DNA from: Spirochaetia bacterium | GTDB taxonomy: Bacteria > Spirochaetota > Spirochaetia > Treponematales > Rectinemataceae | Length of the DNA: 51,839 nt | Direction of reading: 5' to 3' | NCBI GenBank assembly: GCA_029975555.1 | Contig: JARKOY010000177.1 | Location: 1-51,839, forward strand | In this document: piece after piece, positions 2,073 to 51,637 of the stretch | Position numbering within the stretch: the stretch's first letter is position 1 | Layout of the letters: every line of letters begins with the position of its first letter | Notes under the pieces: generated by a model | Told to the model about the DNA's origin: nothing | What the model saw: only the letters and a program-made list of their open reading frames with translations | Database searches by the model: none | Translations under genes and position numbers: made by a program

Positions 2073-3854
2073 ATGGAATCATATATGGAACAGATACAAG
2101 ACGTTGTAGGTCTCGGCGGGGGATTCTTTCGGCTTGGAGCTTCTCAACTTCTTGGAGAACTTCAGTCGAATGTGTATCTCCTCATCGATGACGGAGAGGC
2201 CGTGTTGTTCGGGCCTGGAGCAACGGTCAATTTCCACGAGCTGAAAGAAAATATTCTTAAGTACGCTTCTCTTAGGCCGCTGAGGGCCATTGTCGTCCAT
2301 CAGCAGGAGCCAAGTTCCTCCTCTGCGCTCGTATATCTCGAAAAGGAGGGCTCGCGCGCCGCCATCGCCACGCATTGGCGCACCTGGGGGCAGCTCCGTT
2401 TCTATGGCCTTTCCAGCCAGCCCTACATCATCGACGAGCACGCCTGGGTGCTGCGCCTTTCCTCGGGCAGGGTGCTGCAGTTTTTGCCGACGCCGTACCT
2501 CTATCAGCCGGGCGCCTTCGCCACCTACGACAGGGCCACCAAGACGCTGCTCACAGGGGCACTCTTGTCATCATATACTGACAAAATAAGAATTTACGCG
2601 GACGACGAGCAGTTCTTGGAGCAGCTTAAGGCATTCCACCGCGTGAATATGCCCTCGAAGGAATTTCTTGCTCCAATCATGCAGGTTCTTTCGAAATGGG
2701 ACATCGAACGCGTGATGCCGTCCTACGGTCCCATCGTCCGGGGCGATGTTGGGCGAGTCTTCTCGGAGCTGGCCGAACTGGAGTGCGGAGAGCTCGTGCG
2801 CGCCGAAGGGCTTGAGGCGGTCTACGCGGGCACGGAGCAGTCCGGCGCGACGGCGGCCGAGGTGGCGCGCCTCAAAGAGGAGATCGAGGCGCTGCGCAGG
2901 CTGAATGAAGAGTTGCAGCACAGCATCGTGGTCTCCAAAGACCGTGCGATTCGTGACCCAGTGACAGGCCTGTATTCAGAAATTTTCTATAAGTCTTTTA
3001 TAGATGAAGATATCGCAATACGAATCACCGAGTCTAGGCCGGAAGACCACGTGCTCGCAGTGTTCGGCATCGACGAGAACATCGCCCAGATCGAGTACAA
3101 GTACGGCTCTCGCGAGGTGGAAGCCCTGCTCCATGGAGTGGCGAGGATAATCGAGGAGAATCTGCCCAAAACGGCGATGGCTTTCAGACTGCATGGCGCG
3201 ACCATGGCCGCATGGATTCCTGGCATTCTGTTCGACAAGGGGATAGAGCTTTTTGATAAAATCCGATACCAGATCGAAACTTCGAAGAGCTTCGTTGAGC
3301 CGATCACCGTGTCGGTCGGCGTCGCGACGCTCGCGGAAGCGGCGAGCATACAGCCTGAACTCGAAAAGGTGGCAGCGGACATGACTGACCTCGGCATCCG
3401 ACGTCTTCGCCTCGCGAGGCGCCGCGGCGGAAATACCGTCTATTTTGCCTCGGAAGAAGAGAACGAGGTCGAGGTGAAGGCCCGCATCCTCATCGTCGAC
3501 GACGACGAAGTCAACGTCGATGTCCTCAAAACCTACCTCACCAATGAAGGCTATTCCATCCTGACAGCCGCCGACGGGCAGGAAGCGCTCAGCATCGTGG
3601 GCAAAGAGATCGTCGATCTTGTGATAACGGAGTTGATGGTCCCCAAACTCGATGCATATCTCTTGAAGGAATCCTTGCTCTCCAAAACGGCGACGAAGGA
3701 CATCCCCGTCATCATCATCTCCCACCTCAAGACCGATGTCAGCATTCGCCGCGCATACAGGCTCGGTATCACCTACTATTTACAAAAGCCGATCATTCTT
3801 GAGGAATTGTTGGGAATCGTGCAGAATCTTACGCAGGTGGGGAACGGTCCATGA
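2073..3854 (+). CDS. Degenerate ODP/MBL-GGDEF-receiver regulator
   Basis: A 593-residue soluble protein with three signalling folds in order. Residues 1-250 resemble the metallo-beta-lactamase/oxygen-binding diiron (ODP) fold. Residues 265-290 form a short coiled coil. Residues 293-455 are a GGDEF-type domain (DPVTGLYS at 295-302), and residues 470-590 are a response-regulator receiver. In all three, key residues are changed. The ODP metal positions appear as H76-QQEP-SSSS, Y144, A163 and Y218, where the family has His and Asp ligands. The GGDEF motif reads HGATM (374-378). The receiver has Glu520 where the phosphorylated Asp should be, while its acidic pocket (476-478), Ser550 and Lys572 remain. 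It overlaps the next gene (glycosyltransferase) by 4 bases. The start is uncertain: neither ATG 2073 nor ATG 2085 has a good ribosome-binding site. Confidence 0.85.
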   Translation: MESYMEQIQDVVGLGGGFFRLGASQLLGELQSNVYLLIDDGEAVLFGPGATVNFHELKENILKYASLRPLRAIVVHQQEPSSSSALVYLEKEGSRAAIATHWRTWGQLRFYGLSSQPYIIDEHAWVLRLSSGRVLQFLPTPYLYQPGAFATYDRATKTLLTGALLSSYTDKIRIYADDEQFLEQLKAFHRVNMPSKEFLAPIMQVLSKWDIERVMPSYGPIVRGDVGRVFSELAELECGELVRAEGLEAVYAGTEQSGATAAEVARLKEEIEALRRLNEELQHSIVVSKDRAIRDPVTGLYSEIFYKSFIDEDIAIRITESRPEDHVLAVFGIDENIAQIEYKYGSREVEALLHGVARIIEENLPKTAMAFRLHGATMAAWIPGILFDKGIELFDKIRYQIETSKSFVEPITVSVGVATLAEAASIQPELEKVAADMTDLGIRRLRLARRRGGNTVYFASEEENEVEVKARILIVDDDEVNVDVLKTYLTNEGYSILTAADGQEALSIVGKEIVDLVITELMVPKLDAYLLKESLLSKTATKDIPVIIISHLKTDVSIRRAYRLGITYYLQKPIILEELLGIVQNLTQVGNGP

Positions 3855-40577: not shown

Positions 40578-41864
40578 TCATGCGCTCTGCATGCGCTTTG
40601 CGGTCGACCAGAGCCCGAGCGCAGGATTCGGCACGAAGAAAAAGACCTCGCCGTCGGCGGTCGTGTGGAAGCCGGCGAGCCTGCCGTGGGGCGCGTAGCG
40701 TTCGAGTGCGTGGTCGAGGTCGGCCCATTGGTAGCCCACCGAGGCGATCTCTTCCTTGCTGACGGAGTGTCCAGGGGCATAGGTGATGCGGAAGCGGCCT
40801 TCGCTGGAGCCGTGGATGAGGTGGGCGGCGGCGGAGAGGTTGCCCGCAAGGGCAGGCTCGCGGGCGACGAGGGCTTGTATTTCTGCGCTCGGGCGGTAGC
40901 CGTAGCGCCGGATCACCGCGTCGATGTTCGGGTCTTCGCCGAAACTGCGCAGCCCAGGTGCGAGGATGAGTAGCTCGCCGCCGTCGGCCATCGCCATCCT
41001 CGTGCGGTAAATCGACTTGTTGCCGAGCCACGTGCTGCGGTACTCTTCTGGGTCGAGCCACACCACCGCTTTCTGAATCGGCTCCTCCAAAAGCTGGATG
41101 TTGACCTGCGCGGACAGGGCTGCTGCCTCTTCGAAACAGCGCCTGTCGAGGCTTGAAAAATATCCCCGCAGCGCAAGAGAGCCGTCCTCGGCCGGGCCTA
41201 TCACCGTGAGAATCCACGCGATGGGCGGGATCTTCCCCGCGGCCACGCCCAGCGCCTCGTCGAACAGCGCCCGCACCGGCGTATTCGCCCGCCCCATGAT
41301 TCCCTCCATGCCGCACACCGCGCCGAGGTAGTGACTGCGGTCGATCGCCTCTTTCCCCCCTGTGCCGACGAAAATGTTCTTCGCGTGGTTGGCCATCCCC
41401 GCCACTTCGTGGGGCACGACCTGCCCTACGGAGAAGATGAAGTCGACATCCCCCGACGACAGAAGTCTATTTGCCTGGACTGGATAAGAGTACTGCACTT
41501 TTCCGCCGGAAATTTCGCGGACGCGGCTCTCCGGTATGCGGCCGAGCTCTGCGACATCTCGTCTCCAGTCGTGGGCCCTAAAAAGCGTCTGGGGAGAGCC
41601 CGGAAACATGCGTGCGATCTCCGCCTTCGTCATCTGTGAATGAGTCCCGAGGGCGGGCATGATCGCTGCAACCCTCGGGCCCAACTTTGCGACGAGCAGG
41701 TCGGTGATCTGGCCTGCTCGCGAGTGGAGGCGGGTGATGTCCGGCGGAATGATGAGGATGCGCTTCGCCTTGCGTGCGCCGGAACCTTCGATGGTCCTCT
41801 CCACCAAAGCCTCGAGCTCCTCGTCTTGTATGCTCCGGTTCAGGTTCTTCTCAGCTACGTACAT
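40578..41864 (-). CDS. LarA-type (DUF2088) nickel racemase/epimerase homologue
   Basis: A 428-residue cytoplasmic enzyme of the LarA superfamily. LarA uses a nickel-pincer (NPN) cofactor on a Lys. The key positions keep the spacing of L. plantarum LarA: His75 (GTHSQMT, LarA His108), His152 (VVPHEVAG, His174), Lys162 (NHAKNI, Lys184) and His178 (RSHYLG, His200), so cofactor loading is plausible. GGGGGAG precedes ATG 41864. Known members racemise lactate, malate or aldonates. Here it is divergent from the hexuronate genes, so an aldonate or uronate-derived 2-hydroxy acid is the better guess. The cofactor-making LarBCE genes are not in the window. Confidence 0.88.
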   Translation of the reverse strand: MYVAEKNLNRSIQDEELEALVERTIEGSGARKAKRILIIPPDITRLHSRAGQITDLLVAKLGPRVAAIMPALGTHSQMTKAEIARMFPGSPQTLFRAHDWRRDVAELGRIPESRVREISGGKVQYSYPVQANRLLSSGDVDFIFSVGQVVPHEVAGMANHAKNIFVGTGGKEAIDRSHYLGAVCGMEGIMGRANTPVRALFDEALGVAAGKIPPIAWILTVIGPAEDGSLALRGYFSSLDRRCFEEAAALSAQVNIQLLEEPIQKAVVWLDPEEYRSTWLGNKSIYRTRMAMADGGELLILAPGLRSFGEDPNIDAVIRRYGYRPSAEIQALVAREPALAGNLSAAAHLIHGSSEGRFRITYAPGHSVSKEEIASVGYQWADLDHALERYAPHGRLAGFHTTADGEVFFFVPNPALGLWSTAKRMQSA

Positions 41865-41924
41865 CGTGGTGCTCCCCCTGTGGCGGCATTGTTGTGGCCC
41901 TTGCGCGGCTTCTCTTCGGTCGAC

Positions 41925-41944
41925 ATTATATACAAAGATATACA
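41925..41944. promoter_or_regulatory. Overlapping divergent promoter between LarA-like gene and uxaE
   Basis: The minus strand has a perfect TATAAT (41930-41925) suited to the LarA-like gene, without a good -35. The plus strand carries TATACA twice, at 41929-41934 and 41939-41944, one helical turn apart. The ten-base direct repeat could be a regulator site controlling both directions. Confidence 0.4.
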
Positions 41945-41958
41945 TGGAGGAATAGGGA

Positions 41959-43191
41959 ATGCAACTTTCGCGTTTTTCCATTGGAACTGGTGATCGTTTC
42001 GGCCTCGAAGGTGAGGCGCAGATTGCGGCGTTCAAAGAATTGCGCGCCCATGGCGGCGAGGCGGATATCGTCTGGAACAAGAGCAACCGCGAGCACGTGA
42101 TCATTGGTTCATCCCCTGCAGATCAGGCTGCGGCGGCCGCCGCAGCGATACAGCGTACCGGCTGGGACGGCAGATGGTTCGTCGATGCCGACCATATCAC
42201 CCTTAAGACCGTCGACTGGTTCATACCTCACTGCAATTTCTTTACGATCGATGTCGCCGAAGCGATAGGGAAGAAGGCTTCTGCGGAGGCGCGCGCGGCC
42301 TATCTCGAACGGGCGAAGTTCCTTCTCGAAGAGGGCGCAGCGCCCGTGCCTGTCACCCAGGTCGACATCGAAACCGTGGCCGACAAATTCCTTGCCTCTG
42401 TTCAAGAAGCGGGCACCACGTACCGCTATATCGCCGCAAAAAAGCCGAATGACTCTTTTGTCGTCGAACTTTCGATGGACGAAACCGATGCCCCGCAGAC
42501 GCCCGCACAGGTGGCCGCAATCCTTGTAGCGGTGGCGGCCGAGAATATACCCCTTGCCACATTTGCGCCGCGCTTCCCAGGGAAATTCCTCAAGGGCATC
42601 GACTATGTGGGCGATGTGGCGGAATTTCTAAGTGCCTTCGAGGCGGAGACGAGGATCGTGCTGTGGGCTTCGGAAAAGCTCGGGCTGCCCAAAGGGCTCA
42701 AGCTTTCCGTGCACACGGGGAGCGACAAGTTCAAGCTTTATAAGGGAATTCACGAGATCCTCGTGCGGCTCGGCGCCGGCGTGCACCTGAAGACCGCGGG
42801 CACGACCTGGCTTGAGGAAATCGTGGGGCTCGCGGAGGCCGGCGGCGACGGGCTTACCCTTGCGAAGAGGGTCTATGCGGCTGCCTACGCCAGAATCGAT
42901 GAGCTTGTGGCTCCTTACGCGAACGTCGTCGAAATCGACAGGGCGCGCCTGCCTCGTCCGGAGGATGTCGCAGCCTGGGATTCTGCCACCTTCGTGCACG
43001 CGCTGCGCCATGAGCCTGGTTCCTCGACGATGCAGTCTGACATGCGCCAGCTCATGCACGTGGGCTTCAAGGTGGCCGCAGAGATGGGCAAGGAATACAC
43101 CGACGCCCTTCTGGAATACCGCGAGTCGGTGGCGCGCAATGTCCAGCGCAACTTGTATGCGCGCCATCTTCTGCCACTCATCCTCGGCTGA
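41959..43191 (+). CDS. uxaE: Tagaturonate epimerase
   Basis: A 410-residue enzyme of the UxaE family, first described in Thermotoga, converting D-tagaturonate and D-fructuronate into each other. It matches through SIGTGDRFG, WNKSNREHVIIGS, WFVDADHITLKTVDWFI, DFFTIDVAEAIG-like residues, KLSVHTGSDKFKLY and the final HLLPLILG. This joins galacturonate and glucuronate breakdown through one branch. GGAGG precedes the ATG. The sensor kinase ATG follows 3 bases after its stop, so enzyme and regulator genes share a message. Confidence 0.92.
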   Translation: MQLSRFSIGTGDRFGLEGEAQIAAFKELRAHGGEADIVWNKSNREHVIIGSSPADQAAAAAAAIQRTGWDGRWFVDADHITLKTVDWFIPHCNFFTIDVAEAIGKKASAEARAAYLERAKFLLEEGAAPVPVTQVDIETVADKFLASVQEAGTTYRYIAAKKPNDSFVVELSMDETDAPQTPAQVAAILVAVAAENIPLATFAPRFPGKFLKGIDYVGDVAEFLSAFEAETRIVLWASEKLGLPKGLKLSVHTGSDKFKLYKGIHEILVRLGAGVHLKTAGTTWLEEIVGLAEAGGDGLTLAKRVYAAAYARIDELVAPYANVVEIDRARLPRPEDVAAWDSATFVHALRHEPGSSTMQSDMRQLMHVGFKVAAEMGKEYTDALLEYRESVARNVQRNLYARHLLPLILG

Positions 43192-43194
43192 GTC

Positions 43195-44763
43195 ATGCGT
43201 ATTCCGCGCCCGGGCATTCGCGGCAAGATACTGATATGCCTCGTGGTGGTCCTCGCGTTTTTCCTCGTGCTCGCACTGATCATGCAGCATGAGTCCATCG
43301 CACTGTCCAGGGAGTATGGAGCGAGCCTTTCGAACTACCACCTGGTGCACCGATTCCGTCTGAATCTGGGCGCCTTTCATGCGCTCACCGACCGTTACCT
43401 CCGCGATCCGCTCTCTGTCAAAGCCGAGGACGTGTATGCGGGCATCGCATCGCTCAATGCTCAGTATCCGGCCTTGGTCCCGCTGGAGAATATTTCCATC
43501 CTCGCCGAGTTTGAAGTGCGTGCAACAGGCTACGGCCTCGACGCATATCTTCCTCTCGTGTCCCGGGCAGTGGGGCTCCGGGCCGCAGGTTCTCCAGACT
43601 ACTATCAGGTCTTTGTCAAGGCGACGCGCATAGAGGGTTACCTCGATGTCTATCTCAACAGAATGCTCTCCGAGCTCATGAGAAGCGGCGAAGAGACCTA
43701 TGCGACGCTTTCGCGCAGGGCAGAGATGCTCAATCGCACCATTCTCATTTCGATGATCCTCGCGAGCATCCTCGCGGTGGTCGTCGTCGTGCTCGTGGCC
43801 GAGGCCATCACCGCCCCTTTAAGGAGGCTTGCCAGGGAGGCGGAGAAGCTCGCGAAGGGCGACCTCGACGCGGGGATCGTCGAGGTCCACACGAAGGACG
43901 AGGTAGAGAAACTCACGCGTTCTTTTGCGACGATGGCCACGAGCATCAAGGAGATGGTGGAAGGGCTCAAAGAGAAGGCCGAGCTCGAAAAGCTGCTCCA
44001 CGAAGAGGAGCTCGCCCTCGTCAGCATGGGAAAGGCGCTGCGCGAAGCCCAGTTTATGAACCTGCAGGAACAGATGAAGCCGCACTTCCTCTTCAACGCC
44101 TTGAATACCATCGCGCGCAGCGCCCTCTTGGAACAGGCCTCCAGGACCGAAGCGCTCGCCATGGGGCTGGCAACGCTCCTCCGCGCGACGATACGTGATT
44201 CCGGCCCTCTGTCCACGTTGGAGGATGAGCTTAGGCTTGCGCACGTCTATCTCGAATTTCAGCACGCACGTTTTGGATCGCGACTGCAGTGGAAGATCGA
44301 CGTCCCTTCGGAGGTGCACTCCACCAGAGTCCCAAGGCTTATGGTGCAGCCGCTTGTGGAAAATGCCGTTCGGCACGGGCTTGAGCCGAAGGTCGAAGGC
44401 GGCGCGCTCTCTATCAAGGCTCGCATGCGCAAGGAAAATCTTATCCTGTGGGTGCTCGACGACGGCATTGGCATGTCGCAGGAGCGGCTCGGTAGAATCC
44501 GCGCGAGCATCGTCGCGGCCCTCAGCCTGAGAAGTTACGAAAAAGAAAAATCCTCTGCGGATGCAGGGGAAGGCCTTCCGGTTCCGAAACCGGAAATGGA
44601 CGGCGAAAATAGGCTTGTGGAGGGGACAGGCATTGGACTTGTCAACCTCGCGACGCGCTTCGGCCTTCTCTACGGCGACAAGTGTCGCTTCGACATTGTG
44701 TCCCGCTCGGGCAGGGGCACGCTTGTGAGGGTAGTCATACCTGTGGGAGGGGCGACGGAATGA
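43195..44763 (+). CDS. LytS/YesM-type sensor histidine kinase
   Basis: A 522-residue membrane kinase. TM1 (about 11-31, KILICLVVVLAFFLVLALIM) and TM2 (about 180-203) flank an extracytoplasmic domain of about 140 residues. A HAMP linker (AEAITAPLRRLAREAEKL) and coiled coil lead to the His_kinase motif QMKPHFLFNALNTIA (phosphorylated His in KPHFLFN). The ATPase domain follows with VENAVRHGLEPK and GTGIGLVNLATRFGLLYG. The YesN-like regulator overlaps its stop. Such pairs usually sense an external sugar or a binding protein. Here the signal is probably a uronate. Confidence 0.93.
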   Translation: MRIPRPGIRGKILICLVVVLAFFLVLALIMQHESIALSREYGASLSNYHLVHRFRLNLGAFHALTDRYLRDPLSVKAEDVYAGIASLNAQYPALVPLENISILAEFEVRATGYGLDAYLPLVSRAVGLRAAGSPDYYQVFVKATRIEGYLDVYLNRMLSELMRSGEETYATLSRRAEMLNRTILISMILASILAVVVVVLVAEAITAPLRRLAREAEKLAKGDLDAGIVEVHTKDEVEKLTRSFATMATSIKEMVEGLKEKAELEKLLHEEELALVSMGKALREAQFMNLQEQMKPHFLFNALNTIARSALLEQASRTEALAMGLATLLRATIRDSGPLSTLEDELRLAHVYLEFQHARFGSRLQWKIDVPSEVHSTRVPRLMVQPLVENAVRHGLEPKVEGGALSIKARMRKENLILWVLDDGIGMSQERLGRIRASIVAALSLRSYEKEKSSADAGEGLPVPKPEMDGENRLVEGTGIGLVNLATRFGLLYGDKCRFDIVSRSGRGTLVRVVIPVGGATE

Positions 44764-46121
44764 TCCATGTCCTCGTTGCCGACGACGAGGTGCTCGAGCG
44801 CAAGGCCATGCTGCATATTCTGGCGGGAGTGGATACAGATGAATCCATAGCAGTAAGAGAAGCAGTCAATGGACTTGAGGCGCTCAAGCTCGCCCAGGAA
44901 AGCAAGCCCGACATAGTTTTTCTTGACATCCGTATGCCGGGCATGGACGGGCTCGGCGTCGCTGAGCAATTGTCATTGCTCTCCGATCCGCCGATCGTCA
45001 TCATGGTGACTGCGTACGATCATTTCACCTACGCCCGCACGGCACTGCGCTTCGGTGTCTTCGATTACCTCCTTAAACCCGCATCGACCGAGGATGTCCG
45101 CAGCGTGTTCCGCAGGGCGCTCCACGCAATCGCCGAAAGAAGGAGAGATGCTGCCCGGCGCATGGCGGACCAGCGCATGGCCGCGGATATACAAAGGGCC
45201 CTCCACGCCGACATCTGTAAGGCGCTGGGCGATGGCACCGTCAACGACGAGGATGTCCGGCGGCTTGTCGCCTTTCGGACCCCCTCCCAGACGGACGCCT
45301 CAAGGTGGACTTGCATCGCGGTGGTCGCGGGGGTGGCAAAAGGCTCAGGAAAGGCCGCCTCCTCGATCGCCTCGAGAGAATTCTCAAGATTTTTCCGTGC
45401 GCTGGCAGAGCGGTATCTGTTGATAGACCTAGGGCTCGCCCGTGCCAATGCGCTGCTCTTCGTCCCGCCTCCCGAGCCGAACGCTGCCCCCGCTGCGACT
45501 GCGCATGTGCTCATCGTCGTCTCTGAGCCCGACATCGGGAGCGCTGCCGACGGACATGCCGTGGCGCTTGCTACGGCGCAGTCCCTGCGGGAGCAGATTG
45601 GCGCGGGCGTGGAACGTTTTTCCCAGAGATGTAAGGATGCAGGAGGAATCGCCGTCTGGTTCGGCATCGGCGTGGAGGCGGACGGCAAGGCCAAGGCGGC
45701 ACTTCGGACGGCCAAAATCGCATTCAATCTTTCGAACGCCGAGCGCCCCATACTGCTGCTGAGCTCACCGCATAAGCTCTGGCAGGCTTTGCCGTCTACC
45801 ACGTCCATCTCGGCGCGGGCGGTCGTGTGGCTTCAGGACCATTTCATGGAGAGCATCGGTATCGAAGACCTTGCGCGCGAGCTTATGATGAGCCCCTCCC
45901 ACCTTTCGCGCACGCTGAAGAGAGAGCTCGGCATAGGTTTTGGAGAGGCGCTCGCCCGGATTCGTGTCGCCTGCGCGAAAGACCTCCTCACCAACGGCGC
46001 GTCGGCAAAAGAGGCTTCGTTGCTGGTAGGGTTTCGGGATCAGAGCTACTTCACCAAGGTCTTTGTGAAGATGGAAGGCCTGCCTCCTTCTCAATACGTC
46101 AGGCAGCTTCAATCGATATAG
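44760..46121 (+). CDS. AraC-type response regulator (YesN-like)
   Basis: A 453-residue regulator. The receiver (1-120) is complete: VLVADDE, phosphorylated Asp in DIVFLDIRMPGMDG, and DYLLKPAS. A long middle region (about 125-345) is not recognised. The C-terminal AraC helix-turn-helix pair (about 355-450) includes IGIEDLARELMMSPSHLSRTLKREL and ASLLVGFRDQSYFTKVFVKMEGLPP. The ATG overlaps the kinase stop (ATGA). Its probable target is the TRAP operon starting at 46271, whose promoter has a good -10, no -35, and a nearby inverted repeat. Confidence 0.93.
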   Translation: MIHVLVADDEVLERKAMLHILAGVDTDESIAVREAVNGLEALKLAQESKPDIVFLDIRMPGMDGLGVAEQLSLLSDPPIVIMVTAYDHFTYARTALRFGVFDYLLKPASTEDVRSVFRRALHAIAERRRDAARRMADQRMAADIQRALHADICKALGDGTVNDEDVRRLVAFRTPSQTDASRWTCIAVVAGVAKGSGKAASSIASREFSRFFRALAERYLLIDLGLARANALLFVPPPEPNAAPAATAHVLIVVSEPDIGSAADGHAVALATAQSLREQIGAGVERFSQRCKDAGGIAVWFGIGVEADGKAKAALRTAKIAFNLSNAERPILLLSSPHKLWQALPSTTSISARAVVWLQDHFMESIGIEDLARELMMSPSHLSRTLKRELGIGFGEALARIRVACAKDLLTNGASAKEASLLVGFRDQSYFTKVFVKMEGLPPSQYVRQLQSI

Positions 46122-46270: not shown

Positions 46271-47248
46271 ATGAAAACCACGCAGAAGGCGGTTCTTATT
46301 CTGCTGCTCATCCTCGTCCCGGCAATGCTGTTCGCCCAGACAAAGCCGATCGTGCTGCGGCTCGCCGAGACCCACCCGAAGGGATATCCCACGGAGCTGG
46401 GCGACGAGGAGTTCGCGCGCCTCGTCAAGGAGCGTTCGAACGGCCGCATCATCATCGAGGTGTATCCCGGCTCTCAGCTCGGCGAGGAAAAGGCGGTGAT
46501 CGAGCAGGTCCAATTCGGAGGCATCGATCTCACCCGCGTTTCGATCAGCCCGCTCGCGAGCTTCGTGCCGAAACTCAACGCGTTTCAGATGCCCTACCTC
46601 TACAGGGATTCCGATCACATGTGGAAGGTGTTGAAGGGAGACATCGGCAAGGAGCTTCTGGCGAGCCTCGAGCCCTTCGGGTTCATCGGACTCGGCTGGT
46701 TCGACGGAGGAGCGCGGAGCTTCTACAACAGTAAGAAGGCAGTCCGCACGCCGGCTGACCTCAAGGGCCTGAAGATAAGGGTTCAGGAGAGCGAGCTCAT
46801 GATGGGCCTCGTGCAGTCCTTCGGCGCGGTTCCGACCCCGATGCCCTACGGCGAAGTGTATTCAGGGCTTCAGACCGGCGTCGTCGACGGCGCGGAGAAC
46901 AACCCTCCCTCGTATTATTCGGCCAGCCACTATGAAGTCGCAAAATACTACACCCTCGACGAGCACACCATGGTTCCCGAAATCGTCATCGGTTCCAAGA
47001 TTTCGCTCAGCAGGCTTTCGAAGGCGGATCAGGAGCTGATCAGACAGGCCGCCTTCGATGCCATCGATTTCCAGCGCGCCCAGTGGGCCGCCTATGTGAA
47101 GCTCTCGATGGACAAAGTCCAGGCGGCTGGCTGCACCATCATCCCCGTGCCCGACAAGACCGAATGGATGAAGGCCGTGGAGCCGATGTACAAAAAACAG
47201 TCCAAGGAAATTCAGGACCTCGTCGCCCGCATCCGCGCGGTGAAGTGA
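46271..47248 (+). CDS. dctP: TRAP transporter solute-binding protein
   Basis: A 325-residue DctP-family periplasmic binding protein with a signal peptide (AVLILLLILVPAMLFAQ). Family marks are AETHPKGYPTELGDEEFA, YPGSQLGEEKAVIEQVQFGGID, and the carboxylate-binding Arg in LKGLKIRVQES. GLQTGVVDGAENNPPSYY is typical. Members bind C4-dicarboxylates, sialic acid or uronates. The surrounding genes point to hexuronates. AAGGAGG precedes the ATG. A strong hairpin follows it, which should leave more binding protein than membrane components. Confidence 0.93.
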   Translation: MKTTQKAVLILLLILVPAMLFAQTKPIVLRLAETHPKGYPTELGDEEFARLVKERSNGRIIIEVYPGSQLGEEKAVIEQVQFGGIDLTRVSISPLASFVPKLNAFQMPYLYRDSDHMWKVLKGDIGKELLASLEPFGFIGLGWFDGGARSFYNSKKAVRTPADLKGLKIRVQESELMMGLVQSFGAVPTPMPYGEVYSGLQTGVVDGAENNPPSYYSASHYEVAKYYTLDEHTMVPEIVIGSKISLSRLSKADQELIRQAAFDAIDFQRAQWAAYVKLSMDKVQAAGCTIIPVPDKTEWMKAVEPMYKKQSKEIQDLVARIRAVK

Positions 47249-47358: not shown

Positions 47359-47904
47359 ATGAAGAAGTTTTTTGTTTCTGCGGTGACGCTGGTCCACATT
47401 CTGCTCATAGACCTTTCGATGATCATGATCGTGGCCATGCTGCTCTTGGTGTTCGCGAACGTGGTGCTCCGCTACGTCTTCAACAGCGGCATATTCTGGT
47501 CGGAAGAGATAGCCTTAGTTTTGGAAGTCTGGTTCATCTTCCTCTCGCTGGGGCTTGGCGTGAAGCACCGGCTGCATTTTTCGATAAACCTTATGCCGCG
47601 CGACAAGATGCCAGCAGTGCTCAATAGGGCTCTCGACTTATTGTCCGACGTCATTTTTATCGGCATTGGCGTCGTCATGATAGTGTATGGTAGCAAGCTT
47701 GTGCAGTTTACCATGCGCTCCATCATGCCGGCGACGAAGTGGCCGGCTGGCATTCTGTACCTCGTCCTCCCGCTCGCGGGATTTGTCGTCATCGTCGAGG
47801 CCATCTTCCACATTTTCGGGTTCACCATGTTCGACGAAAAACTCGACGCGTACTTTTCCGGCACGGGCGGAACGCTGAAGGACATTTTCAGGAGCGAACC
47901 ATGA
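47359..47904 (+). CDS. dctQ: TRAP transporter small membrane subunit
   Basis: A 181-residue four-helix protein of the DctQ family, the small partner of DctM. Hydrophobic segments are near residues 8-33, 45-68, 88-110 and 125-150. VFANVVLRYVFNSGIFWSEEIA is the family signature around the second helix. The ATG at 47359 has GAGGTG ahead of it. Its TGA overlaps the dctM ATG, so both are made together. Confidence 0.92.
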   Translation: MKKFFVSAVTLVHILLIDLSMIMIVAMLLLVFANVVLRYVFNSGIFWSEEIALVLEVWFIFLSLGLGVKHRLHFSINLMPRDKMPAVLNRALDLLSDVIFIGIGVVMIVYGSKLVQFTMRSIMPATKWPAGILYLVLPLAGFVVIVEAIFHIFGFTMFDEKLDAYFSGTGGTLKDIFRSEP

Positions 47905-49205
47905 TGGACACGACGATTGCCACTACGATACTGTTGGGCGGATTCCTTCTGCTCTTGATCTTGAGGATCCCCATTACCTTCTCCCTTGCGACCGCATCCA
48001 TCGCCACGGCCCTCTATTTGAAGATACCGCTCATGGCGATCGTCCAACAGATGGTGCAGGGGGTCAAATCGTTCTCCCTGCTTGCGATCCCGTTTTTCAT
48101 CATTGCCGGCGAGATGATGGGGCGCGGCGGCATCGCGGAGAAGATCATAAACCTCGCGAATGTGCTCGTCGGCAGAATCCGCGGCGGGCTCGGCATGGTG
48201 AACGTCGTCGACAGCATGTTCTTCGGCGGCATCTCTGGGTCTGCCGTCGCCGACGTAGCATCGACGGGCACCATCATCATCCCCCTCATGAACAAGAAGG
48301 GGTACGACAACGACTTTTCGGTGGCCATCACGGTCACGAGCGCCACGCAGGGGATCATCATACCTCCGAGCCACAACATGATCATCTATTCGGTGGCGGC
48401 GGGCGGTGTCTCCGTCGGGCGGCTTTTCCTCGGAGGATACCTGCCCGGCATTCTGCTCGGGATATCCCTCGGCGTCATCGTCTATATCATTTCAGTGAAA
48501 AGAAATTATCCAAAGGAACGAAAATATACGCTCAAAGAGGCGGTGAAGATACTCATCGATTCCTTCTTGGGGCTGCTCACCGCCATCATCATTATGGGCG
48601 GCGTCATTTCCGGTATATTTACTGCTACGGAGTCGGCTGCCGTTGCGGCGGTCTATGCATTCATCATAACCTTCTTCGTCTACCGACAGATACCGCTCAA
48701 AGAGTTCAGGGGGATTCTCTACAGCACGCTCAAGACTCTCACGATGGTGATGACGCTCATCGCCTCGGCGAGTGCGTTCTCGTGGCTGATGGCCTACCTG
48801 CGCATTCCGGCCAAGGCGACTGAAATGCTCCTTTCGATCACGGACAACAAGATACTCCTCCTTATGCTCATCAACGTGCTTTTGCTGTTGTTGGGCATGA
48901 TCATGGACATGGCGCCCCTCATTCTCATCGTGACACCGATTCTGTATCCTGTGGTCGTGGAAAAGCTCGGCATGTCGCCGATCCATTTCGGCATCATGCT
49001 GATGATCAATCTCGCCATAGGATTGTGCACGCCGCCTGTCGGGTCGGCGCTGTTTGTGGGGTGCGCCATTGGGAAGATCTCGATCGAAAAGGCGACAAAG
49101 GCCATGATACCGTTCTATATCGCCATGATTGTCGTTTTGTTCCTTGTGACGTATATTCCACAGATAACGATGTTTCTTCCCAACCTCATCATGCCCGGAG
49201 GCTGA
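47901..49205 (+). CDS. dctM: TRAP transporter large membrane subunit
   Basis: A 434-residue, about twelve-helix sodium-driven permease of the DctM family. The conserved IPFFIIAGEMMGRGGIAEKIINLA, SMFFGGISGSAVADVASTG and PPSHNMIIYS segments are present. Length is typical. It works with DctQ and the DctP-type receptor. A terminator-like hairpin 84 bases downstream separates it from the SDR and uxaC genes. Confidence 0.95.
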   Translation: MMDTTIATTILLGGFLLLLILRIPITFSLATASIATALYLKIPLMAIVQQMVQGVKSFSLLAIPFFIIAGEMMGRGGIAEKIINLANVLVGRIRGGLGMVNVVDSMFFGGISGSAVADVASTGTIIIPLMNKKGYDNDFSVAITVTSATQGIIIPPSHNMIIYSVAAGGVSVGRLFLGGYLPGILLGISLGVIVYIISVKRNYPKERKYTLKEAVKILIDSFLGLLTAIIIMGGVISGIFTATESAAVAAVYAFIITFFVYRQIPLKEFRGILYSTLKTLTMVMTLIASASAFSWLMAYLRIPAKATEMLLSITDNKILLLMLINVLLLLLGMIMDMAPLILIVTPILYPVVVEKLGMSPIHFGIMLMINLAIGLCTPPVGSALFVGCAIGKISIEKATKAMIPFYIAMIVVLFLVTYIPQITMFLPNLIMPGG

Positions 49206-49345: not shown

Positions 49346-50173
49346 ATGTCGTTTGTAGAGTCTCTCTTCAGTTTGCATGGAAGTATCGCGGTGGTGACAG
49401 GCGGGGGTGGGGCCTTGCCCTCTTCGATCGCCGTCGCCTTTGTAAAGGCGGGGGCAAGGGTGGCGCTCTGGGGCCGCGGGACGCATCACCCTATGACCGA
49501 AGCAGCCGAGCAGGTTAAAAGTCAGGCGGGACTGGCCCCAGACAGTCAGGACGTGGTGGGTGTTACGGTGGACACGGCGTCGAGCGCGGCCTGCGAGGCG
49601 GCCTTTGACGCGACGCTGAACTCGCTCGGCATGCCGGACATCCTCCTCAACGGCGTTGGCGGGAACATGGGACGGAGCAGTTTTATCGACTTCGATGAAC
49701 ACGTGTTCGAGGATGTCCTGCGGCTCAACCTCATGGCGGGGCTCATGGTGCCCTCCAGGGTTTTTGCGCGGCGCTGGATCGATGCGGGCGTAAAGGGCGC
49801 CATGATCAACATGACCTCCATGGCGAGCTACAAAGGTCTTTCGGCAGTCTGGGCGTACGACGCGGCCAAGGCGGGCGTGCTCAACCTCACGCAGGCCCTC
49901 GCCAAGGAGCTCGCTCCTCACGGCATACGGGTGAACGCGGTGGCGCCGGGCTTTTTTGTGGGGAACCAGAACCGTGCGCTGCTCTTCGACGAAAAGACGG
50001 GCAAGCTCACGGCCAGAGGGCAAGCGATCATCGCGCGCACGCCCTTCGGGCGCTTCGGCGAATATGAAGAGCTCTGGGGAGCGGTGCTGTACCTGGCAAG
50101 TTCGAAGGCCTCAGGGTTCGTGACCGGCGTCAGCATCCCCGTGGACGGTGGATACCTCAGCGACAACATCTGA
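49346..50173 (+). CDS. SDR oxidoreductase, probable fructuronate reductase (D-mannonate-forming)
   Basis: A 275-residue short-chain dehydrogenase. The NAD(P) turn is TGGGGALPSSIA, where most relatives of this group have TGGGGxLG, so one Gly is Pro. The catalytic Ser (INMTSMAS), Tyr and Lys (YDAAK) are present, as is the final FVTGVSIPVDGGYLS. Related SDRs in uronate clusters reduce fructuronate to mannonate and stand in for UxuB. That role fits the adjacent uxaC and upstream uxaE. The ribosome-binding site is GAAGGAG. Alternative: a generic sugar-acid dehydrogenase. Confidence 0.85.
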   Translation: MSFVESLFSLHGSIAVVTGGGGALPSSIAVAFVKAGARVALWGRGTHHPMTEAAEQVKSQAGLAPDSQDVVGVTVDTASSAACEAAFDATLNSLGMPDILLNGVGGNMGRSSFIDFDEHVFEDVLRLNLMAGLMVPSRVFARRWIDAGVKGAMINMTSMASYKGLSAVWAYDAAKAGVLNLTQALAKELAPHGIRVNAVAPGFFVGNQNRALLFDEKTGKLTARGQAIIARTPFGRFGEYEELWGAVLYLASSKASGFVTGVSIPVDGGYLSDNI

Positions 50174-50194: not shown

Positions 50195-51637
50195 ATGACT
50201 CGATTTTTGGACGAGAATTTCTTGTTGAAGAATGAGACCGCGAAGAGGCTCTTCTTTGGGGTTGCAAAAGACTTGCCGATCTTCGATTACCATTGCCACT
50301 TGTCGCCAAAGGCGATCGCCGAAGACGAGCCTTTCGACGACATCGCGCGGATGTGGCTCGAGGGGGATCATTACAAATGGCGCATCATGAGGGCGAACGG
50401 GGAGCCTGAGTCGCTCTGTGGCGGCGCAGGTCCATGGGATGAAAAATTCGTTGCGTACGCTCGCGCGCTTCTGAACGCCGCGGGGAACCCTCTTCTTCAT
50501 TGGTCTCACCTGGAGCTGCAAAGGATATTCGGCATTTCGGAGCTACTGACACCGCAGAACGCCTTGGAAATCAGGCAAAAGGCAAACCGCATGCTCGCGA
50601 CCGAAAGGATCAGCCCGCGTTCTCTCCTCACAAAGTTCAATGTGAAGGTGCTGTGCACGACGGACGATCCTGTCGACGATCTACGCTGGCACAGTGCGAT
50701 CGCCGAAGAACAGCAAAGGGGCTGTGCGTTTCAGACGAAGGTGCTCCCCGCCTTTCGTCCGGACAAGGCAATGAATGCGGGAGATGTTGCCACCTGGAAC
50801 AAGTATATCGATGAGCTCGGCAGGGCTGCCGGCGTCGAGGTTGATTCCTATCCTTCGCTGCTCGAAGCGCTCGCACAGCGCCACGACTACTTCCATTCGA
50901 TGGGCTGCCGGCTTTCGGATCACGCGCTGCTCGTGCCGCCCTATGCGCCGGCTCAGGACGCGGAACTCGACGCTATTGTGAAGAAGGCCCGAGAGGGGAG
51001 GGCGCTTTCTCCTGTGGAACAGGAAAAGCTGGCTACGGCCTTGCTTCTGCACTGTGCGCGCCTCAACGCGCAGAAAGGCTGGACGATGCAGCTGCACATC
51101 GCGGCACTGAGGAACGTCAACCCGAGGCTGTTCCGGGCCTTTGGCCCAGACGTGGGGGGCGACAGCACGTCCGACGCTTCCATCGTGGCGCCGCTCGCCA
51201 GTTTCTTAGGGGCCCTGGAGGGCGAGGGCTCGCTCCCGAAGACTATCCTCTATTCGCTCGATCCTTCGAAGCACAATCCTTTGGCAACGCTCGCGGCGAG
51301 CTTCGCCGGAACCTCGCCTGAGGCGACCGCTTCGCAGGTGGCGGGCAAGGTGCAGCTCGGCGCCGCATGGTGGTTCAATGATCAGAAAGACGGCATGGAG
51401 CGCCACCTCAGGGAGTACGCCGGCGTCGGGCTCATCGGCGCGTGGGTTGGGATGCTGACTGATTCCCGTTCCTTTATGTCCTTCCCGCGACACGAGTATT
51501 TCAGGCGCATTCTCTGCAACACGGTGGGAGAGTGGGTCGAGGCCGGGGAGTTGCCGGATGATCCGGCGTACACAGATCGGCTCGTGCGCGGTATCTGTTG
51601 GGAAAATGCGGTTAGGTATTTTGCTATCCTTCATTAG
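50195..51637 (+). CDS. uxaC: Uronate isomerase
   Basis: A 480-residue amidohydrolase-fold isomerase converting glucuronate to fructuronate and galacturonate to tagaturonate. FDYHCHLSPK gives the first metal-binding His pair, VLCTTDDPVDDLRWH and the KVLPAFRPDKAMN segment are family marks, and MQLHIAALRNVNPRLF and LTDSRSFMSFPRHEYFRR complete it. GAGGGAGGG precedes ATG 50195. Frames starting at 50180 lack a proper site. It is the first cytosolic step for uronates brought in by the TRAP system. The last 200 bases of the window show no further gene. Confidence 0.96.
   Translation: MTRFLDENFLLKNETAKRLFFGVAKDLPIFDYHCHLSPKAIAEDEPFDDIARMWLEGDHYKWRIMRANGEPESLCGGAGPWDEKFVAYARALLNAAGNPLLHWSHLELQRIFGISELLTPQNALEIRQKANRMLATERISPRSLLTKFNVKVLCTTDDPVDDLRWHSAIAEEQQRGCAFQTKVLPAFRPDKAMNAGDVATWNKYIDELGRAAGVEVDSYPSLLEALAQRHDYFHSMGCRLSDHALLVPPYAPAQDAELDAIVKKAREGRALSPVEQEKLATALLLHCARLNAQKGWTMQLHIAALRNVNPRLFRAFGPDVGGDSTSDASIVAPLASFLGALEGEGSLPKTILYSLDPSKHNPLATLAASFAGTSPEATASQVAGKVQLGAAWWFNDQKDGMERHLREYAGVGLIGAWVGMLTDSRSFMSFPRHEYFRRILCNTVGEWVEAGELPDDPAYTDRLVRGICWENAVRYFAILH

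Follow-up and report, generated by a model that had tools for sequence, protein, structure and literature searches.

In the main text of Desguin et al. (2020; PMC7583248), in vitro conversion of mannonate to gluconate is described for LarAH groups 19 and 20, the structure 4NAR is identified as GntE2 of Thermotoga maritima, and an EV/S loop and a helix-11 tryptophan are described as a signature that groups 18–20 have in common. A hexonate-epimerase role for group 18 was already hypothesised there, and a uronate-to-gluconate setting in T. maritima was proposed earlier by Rodionova et al. (2012; as cited in the text of PMC6978723), so that neither the role of the group nor the Thermotoga version of the route considered below is new. 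In Lactobacillus suebicus, mannonate from an isomerase route likewise reaches 6-phosphogluconate and Gnd, with the difference that a kinase precedes the epimerase: extracts had no direct mannonate-to-gluconate activity, and the genes for the mannonate kinase and the 6-phosphomannonate 2-epimerase were not identified according to the text of that report (PMC6978723).

The locus described here lies on contig JARKOY010000177.1 of a Spirochaetia bacterium (assembly GCA_029975555.1). The window, that is, the whole stretch of DNA analysed, is this entire contig (C89; 51,839 nt). The features around the LarA-type gene are as follows (L, G and C numbers denote loci, genomes and contigs).

40578–41864, minus strand: LarAH group 18 protein (predicted NPN-type C2 epimerase), 428 aa, assigned from NF052594, alignments and an AlphaFold model
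41865–41958: divergent intergenic region, 94 bp, in which the stretch TATATAATGTCG is conserved in an alignment with the closest relative (L067)
41959–43191, plus strand: UxaE-type tagaturonate/fructuronate epimerase, 410 aa (PF16257, 152.5 bits)
43195–44763, plus strand: sensor histidine kinase with HAMP, His_kinase and HATPase domains (Pfam); orthologues in L067 (69%) and L068 (45%)
44760–46121, plus strand: response regulator with AraC-type DNA-binding domain (Pfam)
46271–47248, plus strand: TRAP substrate-binding protein DctP (PF03480, 282 bits), 76% identical to that of L068 and 67% to that of Gracilinema L168
47359–47904, plus strand: TRAP small membrane subunit DctQ, 54% and 41% identical to the L068 and L168 counterparts
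47901–49205, plus strand: TRAP large membrane subunit DctM, 75% identical to the Gracilinema L168 counterpart
49346–50173, plus strand: SDR oxidoreductase closest to D-mannonate oxidoreductase (NF006132, 245 bits, below the cut-off of 281)
50195–51637, plus strand: uronate isomerase UxaC (PF02614, 608 bits; NF002794, 564 bits)

The larAH18 gene is therefore divergent from uronate genes as originally predicted, with uxaE as its immediate neighbour and the UxaC and SDR assignments confirmed. As judged from their predicted products, the genes of the window can supply mannonate from glucuronate and, via UxaE, from galacturonate. The divergent uxaE/larAH18 pair is kept in a Treponema MAG (L067; UxaE 74%, LarAH18 71%, histidine kinase 69% identity) and in L068 (54% and 58%), which also has the TRAP genes in common with the window. 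Elsewhere in the window, positions 2073–3854 encode a protein in which an ODP-family beta-lactamase fold is combined with GGDEF and response-regulator receiver domains.

The longest frame of larAH18 spans 40578–42104 on the minus strand, with homology starting only at the ATG at 41864; from this start the 428 amino acid polypeptide is obtained, with relatives aligning from residue 1–2. The polypeptide matched NCBIfam model NF052594, the model for LarAH group 18 (‘nickel-dependent putative hexonate epimerase’), over profile positions 3–410 of 411 (571 bits, cut-off 500, E 9e-172), and Pfam Lar_N with 44.9 bits, far above chance. The predicted LarA-type ORF is thus genuine, and by these profile matches 40578–41864 on the minus strand encodes a full-length LarA-superfamily protein of an already modelled family, with the same active site and no family-level difference.

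The four residues named in the original prediction, His75, His152, Lys162 and His178, occur at the positions given and, together with Asp42, Arg45 and Lys283 (D72, R75 and K298 of LarA), are invariant in 18 aligned homologues and in a broader set (70/70). The catalytic residues of LarA (D72, H108, H174 and K298) correspond to D42, H75, H152 and K283, and its NPN-binding residues (R75, K184 and H200) to R45, K162 and H178, which is the complete set as defined for LarA, Mar2 and GntE2 in the main text of PMC7583248. E153, V154 and W279, also present in 70/70 sequences, give LarAH18 the E-V/S loop and helix-11 tryptophan of the D-gluconate 2-epimerase (GntE) signature. A LarA fold is predicted by the AlphaFold model (mean pLDDT 92.8), whose top matches were GntE2, LarA and Mar2; the best PDB fold match, 4NAR (TM 0.81), was also the only PDB sequence match. 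LarAH18 thus resembles GntE2 (LarAH20) in fold, NPN-binding and catalytic residues, loop and tryptophan, whereas identity in the fold alignment is 22% and N282 of LarAH18 stands where GntE2 has G286.

Neighbourhoods were compared at 98 LarAH18 loci, many of which end early at contig ends. LarAH18 matches above the cut-off came from 19 genomes of a 296-genome phylum sample. Another 80 loci were collected by scanning named genomes, with at least one genome (G002/L079) present in both sets; these 80 loci represent Spirochaetota, Bacteroidota, Ignavibacteriota, Planctomycetota, Verrucomicrobiota, Acidobacteriota, Kiritimatiellota, Lentisphaerota and Caldisericota. The 6-phosphogluconate dehydrogenase gene gnd was found at 56 of the 98 loci (within 400 bp at 28), a mannonate-oxidoreductase-like SDR at 51, a PfkB kinase at 31 (within 400 bp at 24), UxaC at 29, UxaE at 26 and UxuA at only 4. 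By our estimate, a single-copy gene would lie within 10 kb by chance in <1% of 3–4 Mb genomes. A recurrent order was LacI-SDR-(PfkB, or PFP and/or HAD)-LarAH18-(PdxB)-Gnd, with transketolase next in some loci. This gene context across 98 loci is the new support for the hexonate-epimerase role. Through the association of LarAH18 with gnd, the SDR, UxaC and UxaE, and with GntE2 as the best structural match, the reading of the family as aldonate C2-epimerases is well supported by sequence comparison.

Where the PfkB kinase is missing, a HAD-family protein, often with a PFP-like (PF00365) kinase, adjoins LarAH18 (L047:8455–9339, L134:9011–9898, L043:11475–12758). Within 3 kb of LarAH18, PfkB modules (27 loci) and HAD modules (20 loci) show zero overlap, a mutual exclusion between PfkB and HAD/PFP that suggests non-orthologous replacement. 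In Gracilinema and several termite-gut Treponema (L069–L071, L073, L075, L078, L081, L084, L059), the same-strand gene immediately upstream of larAH18 is a different one, of 6-phosphofructokinase type. A match to PdxB (4-phosphoerythronate dehydrogenase) was present near larAH18-gnd in 20 loci (among them L144, L129 and L117), and gnd was present in every one. Since 4-phosphoerythronate inhibits 6-phosphogluconate dehydrogenase, PdxB may serve metabolite repair there.

In the genome studied here, gnd and the PfkB gene do not adjoin larAH18; gnd (758 bits) lies on another contig, C29, with a PfkB gene 105 bp away. The C29 PfkB shares 37% identity with the LarAH18-linked PfkB and gave its best scores, well below cut-off, with KDG-kinase-like models; we infer that it is a gluconate kinase. 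A link between the two contigs is provided by locus L168 of genome G194, which we take to be Gracilinema caldarium, the closely related named locus L075 pointing to that species. There, a TRAP system like that of the window (DctP 67%, DctM 75%) lies directly beside LacI-gnd-PfkB, which ties the window locus to the C29 locus; a histidine kinase (33%) and a response regulator (about 37%) of the same type as those of the window are also present at L168.

The lack of UxuA noted in the original prediction is true of the window. A whole-genome search located the sole UxuA (518 bits) on contig C113, in a TRAP-UxuA-UxuB-GntR cluster (L063), where the UxuB call is a 125-bit match to the fructuronate reductase model, below its cut-off. 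The proposed route without mannonate dehydratase therefore does not describe this genome, which, like the canonical hexuronate route, has UxaC, a mannonate-forming reductase and UxuA. Because UxuA is present, LarAH18 is here, on genomic evidence, a second exit from mannonate and not a stand-in for a missing enzyme: UxuA converts mannonate to KDG, whereas LarAH18 would send it towards the pentose phosphate pathway. For most of the LarAH18 family a UxuA-free route is plausible, since UxuA was missing from 30 of 46 LarAH18 genomes tested.

Given the neighbourhoods, the tie between C29 and the window and the activity of groups 19 and 20, the best reading is a route from uronate through fructuronate, mannonate, gluconate and 6-phosphogluconate to ribulose-5-phosphate, in which LarAH18 is probably a nickel-pincer-type enzyme epimerising D-mannonate at C2 to D-gluconate and so feeding uronates into the pentose phosphate pathway. 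Uronates would enter through the TRAP transporter, UxaC and UxaE would convert glucuronate and galacturonate to fructuronate, and the SDR would reduce fructuronate to mannonate. LarAH18 would then transfer the C2 hydride to NPN and return it on the other face, with His75 and His152 acting as bases and Lys162 and His178 holding the cofactor. The PfkB kinase and 6-phosphogluconate dehydrogenase encoded on the other contig would take gluconate to 6-phosphogluconate and on to ribulose-5-phosphate. What we infer from these comparisons is which substrate is used and in which direction, what the PfkB kinase does, and that the holoenzyme carries NPN, which would have to be acquired externally or through some unrecognised pathway. 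Counting against this explanation are that no larBCE was found, that UxuA is present, that gnd-PfkB does not adjoin larAH18 and that the PfkB scores best with KDG-kinase-like models.

No larC was found in the contigs of this genome (99% complete) by a search that was positive in the control, T. maritima; larE, with the same control genome, and larB were not found in it either. The host of GntE2 differs in this respect, having LarC and, according to the text of PMC9283937, LarE. The sole PF00731 match, considered as LarB, sits in a purine gene cluster and is PurE, and the ATP-pyrophosphatase-type matches considered as LarE reached 43 bits at best (cut-off 150). A second LarA-type gene of the genome lies on contig C111 (L001:862–2100) beside a malic-enzyme-like gene, its product being of the malate/lactate-racemase type and nearest to malate-racemase models, without reaching their cut-offs (LarAH6, 379 bits). 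A third PF09861 match, on contig C151, was rejected as LarA, being a 357-aa protein of DUF362-type look below the family cut-off.

The original prediction had counted a lack of NPN-synthesis genes in the genome as evidence against itself, and none was found. We take this to raise a cofactor question and not to refute the enzyme, because many relatives that are also without LarBCE keep the same operon and active site. LarC was missing from 11 of the 19 LarAH18 genomes in the phylum sample, compared with 8 of 38 genomes carrying LarA of other groups (Fisher p 0.008, with relatedness not corrected for); the same 11 Spirochaetota genomes were also without LarB and LarE, at 97–100% completeness and with one of them a single contig. 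In the named set LarC was missing from 22 of 50 genomes, 19 of these 22 also being without LarE; the other 3 had LarE or a fragment of it, and assembly incompleteness does explain some of the LarC-less cases. As a general cause of missing larC, random MAG incompleteness is disfavoured by the completeness of the Spirochaetota genomes, by the joint absence of LarB, LarC and LarE and by clustering on the tree. A quick LarAH18 tree requires at least 14 changes of the LarC-less state, compared with 23.8 when shuffled, so that the state is more clustered than chance, and six changes are forced by well-supported branches. Another LarA group, with 145–196 bits a relative of LarAH18, also occurs mostly where no LarC was found (G003, G016, G028, G039, G054, G061, G068).

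The seven key residues are retained without exception in 33/33 LarC-less and 37/37 LarC-bearing LarAH18 sequences, so that selection for NPN binding appears to act on LarAH18 even in organisms with no visible means of making NPN. The NPN could come from uptake or from an unrecognised synthesis route, gene loss from assemblies being the option disfavoured for Spirochaetota. That a working NPN-dependent epimerase with an invariant NPN site is kept in many lineages from which LarB, LarE and LarC were lost or in which they never existed, with NPN or an equivalent taken up from neighbours or supplied by an unrecognised pathway, is in our judgement an evenly balanced proposition. A literature search gave no paper on NPN salvage, and neither the gnd-kinase-SDR context nor the frequent lack of LarBCE was found in the parts of the main texts searched.

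Of the prediction that the enzyme is an aldonate C2-epimerase acting from mannonate to gluconate, the family-level part stands on gene context and the match to GntE2, and the epimerase may act either before or after the kinase. If the kinase came first, PfkB or a PFP-type enzyme would make 6-phosphomannonate and LarAH18 would be a 6-phosphomannonate 2-epimerase supplying Gnd with 6-phosphogluconate. Both activities were measured in L. suebicus extracts (text of PMC6978723), the PfkB gene lies ≤400 bp from larAH18 in 24 loci, usually upstream, and the gene content of the operon fits this order equally well, context being unable to give the sequence of steps. N282 precedes the catalytic lysine near the active site in group 18, where GntE2 has G286, and the basic residues H348, H351 and R357 are invariant or nearly so. 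Against these points, the characterised LarA epimerases GntE1 and GntE2 use unphosphorylated mannonate (main text of PMC7583248), and since both assayed relatives do so we favour unphosphorylated mannonate as the probable substrate by analogy and consider the phosphorylated one rather unlikely.

A substrate outside this pair, such as altronate, an L-aldonate or an aldarate, with the proximity of gnd elsewhere marking general sugar-acid metabolism, seems a good deal less likely still. The KM of GntE1 for mannonate is 120 mM, the authors suggest another native substrate for its group (main text of PMC7583248), and no group 18 assay was found in the literature as far as its texts were searched; however, the nearby SDR is closest to mannonate oxidoreductase, and the need of gnd for 6-phosphogluconate is consistent with gluconate or mannonate but not with altronate. 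Least probable of all, and very much so, is that LarAH18 stays a functionless apo-enzyme here because NPN is not made. The failure to find larB, larC and larE in this genome would agree with it, but conservation of the seven catalytic and NPN-binding residues in every LarC-less sequence, across several separate lineages, is unexpected of decaying genes, and the divergent pairing with uxaE is kept in relatives that are likewise LarC-less.

The surprise is a predicted nickel-cofactor enzyme in this and many other genomes without recognisable nickel-cofactor genes. If the cofactor pattern is true, either NPN joins the cofactors shared among bacteria or a second way to make it exists. If the route from mannonate to gluconate is true, a large LarA group spread over several phyla would provide the step that lets the sugars of pectin and glucuronan into the pentose phosphate pathway without KDG chemistry.
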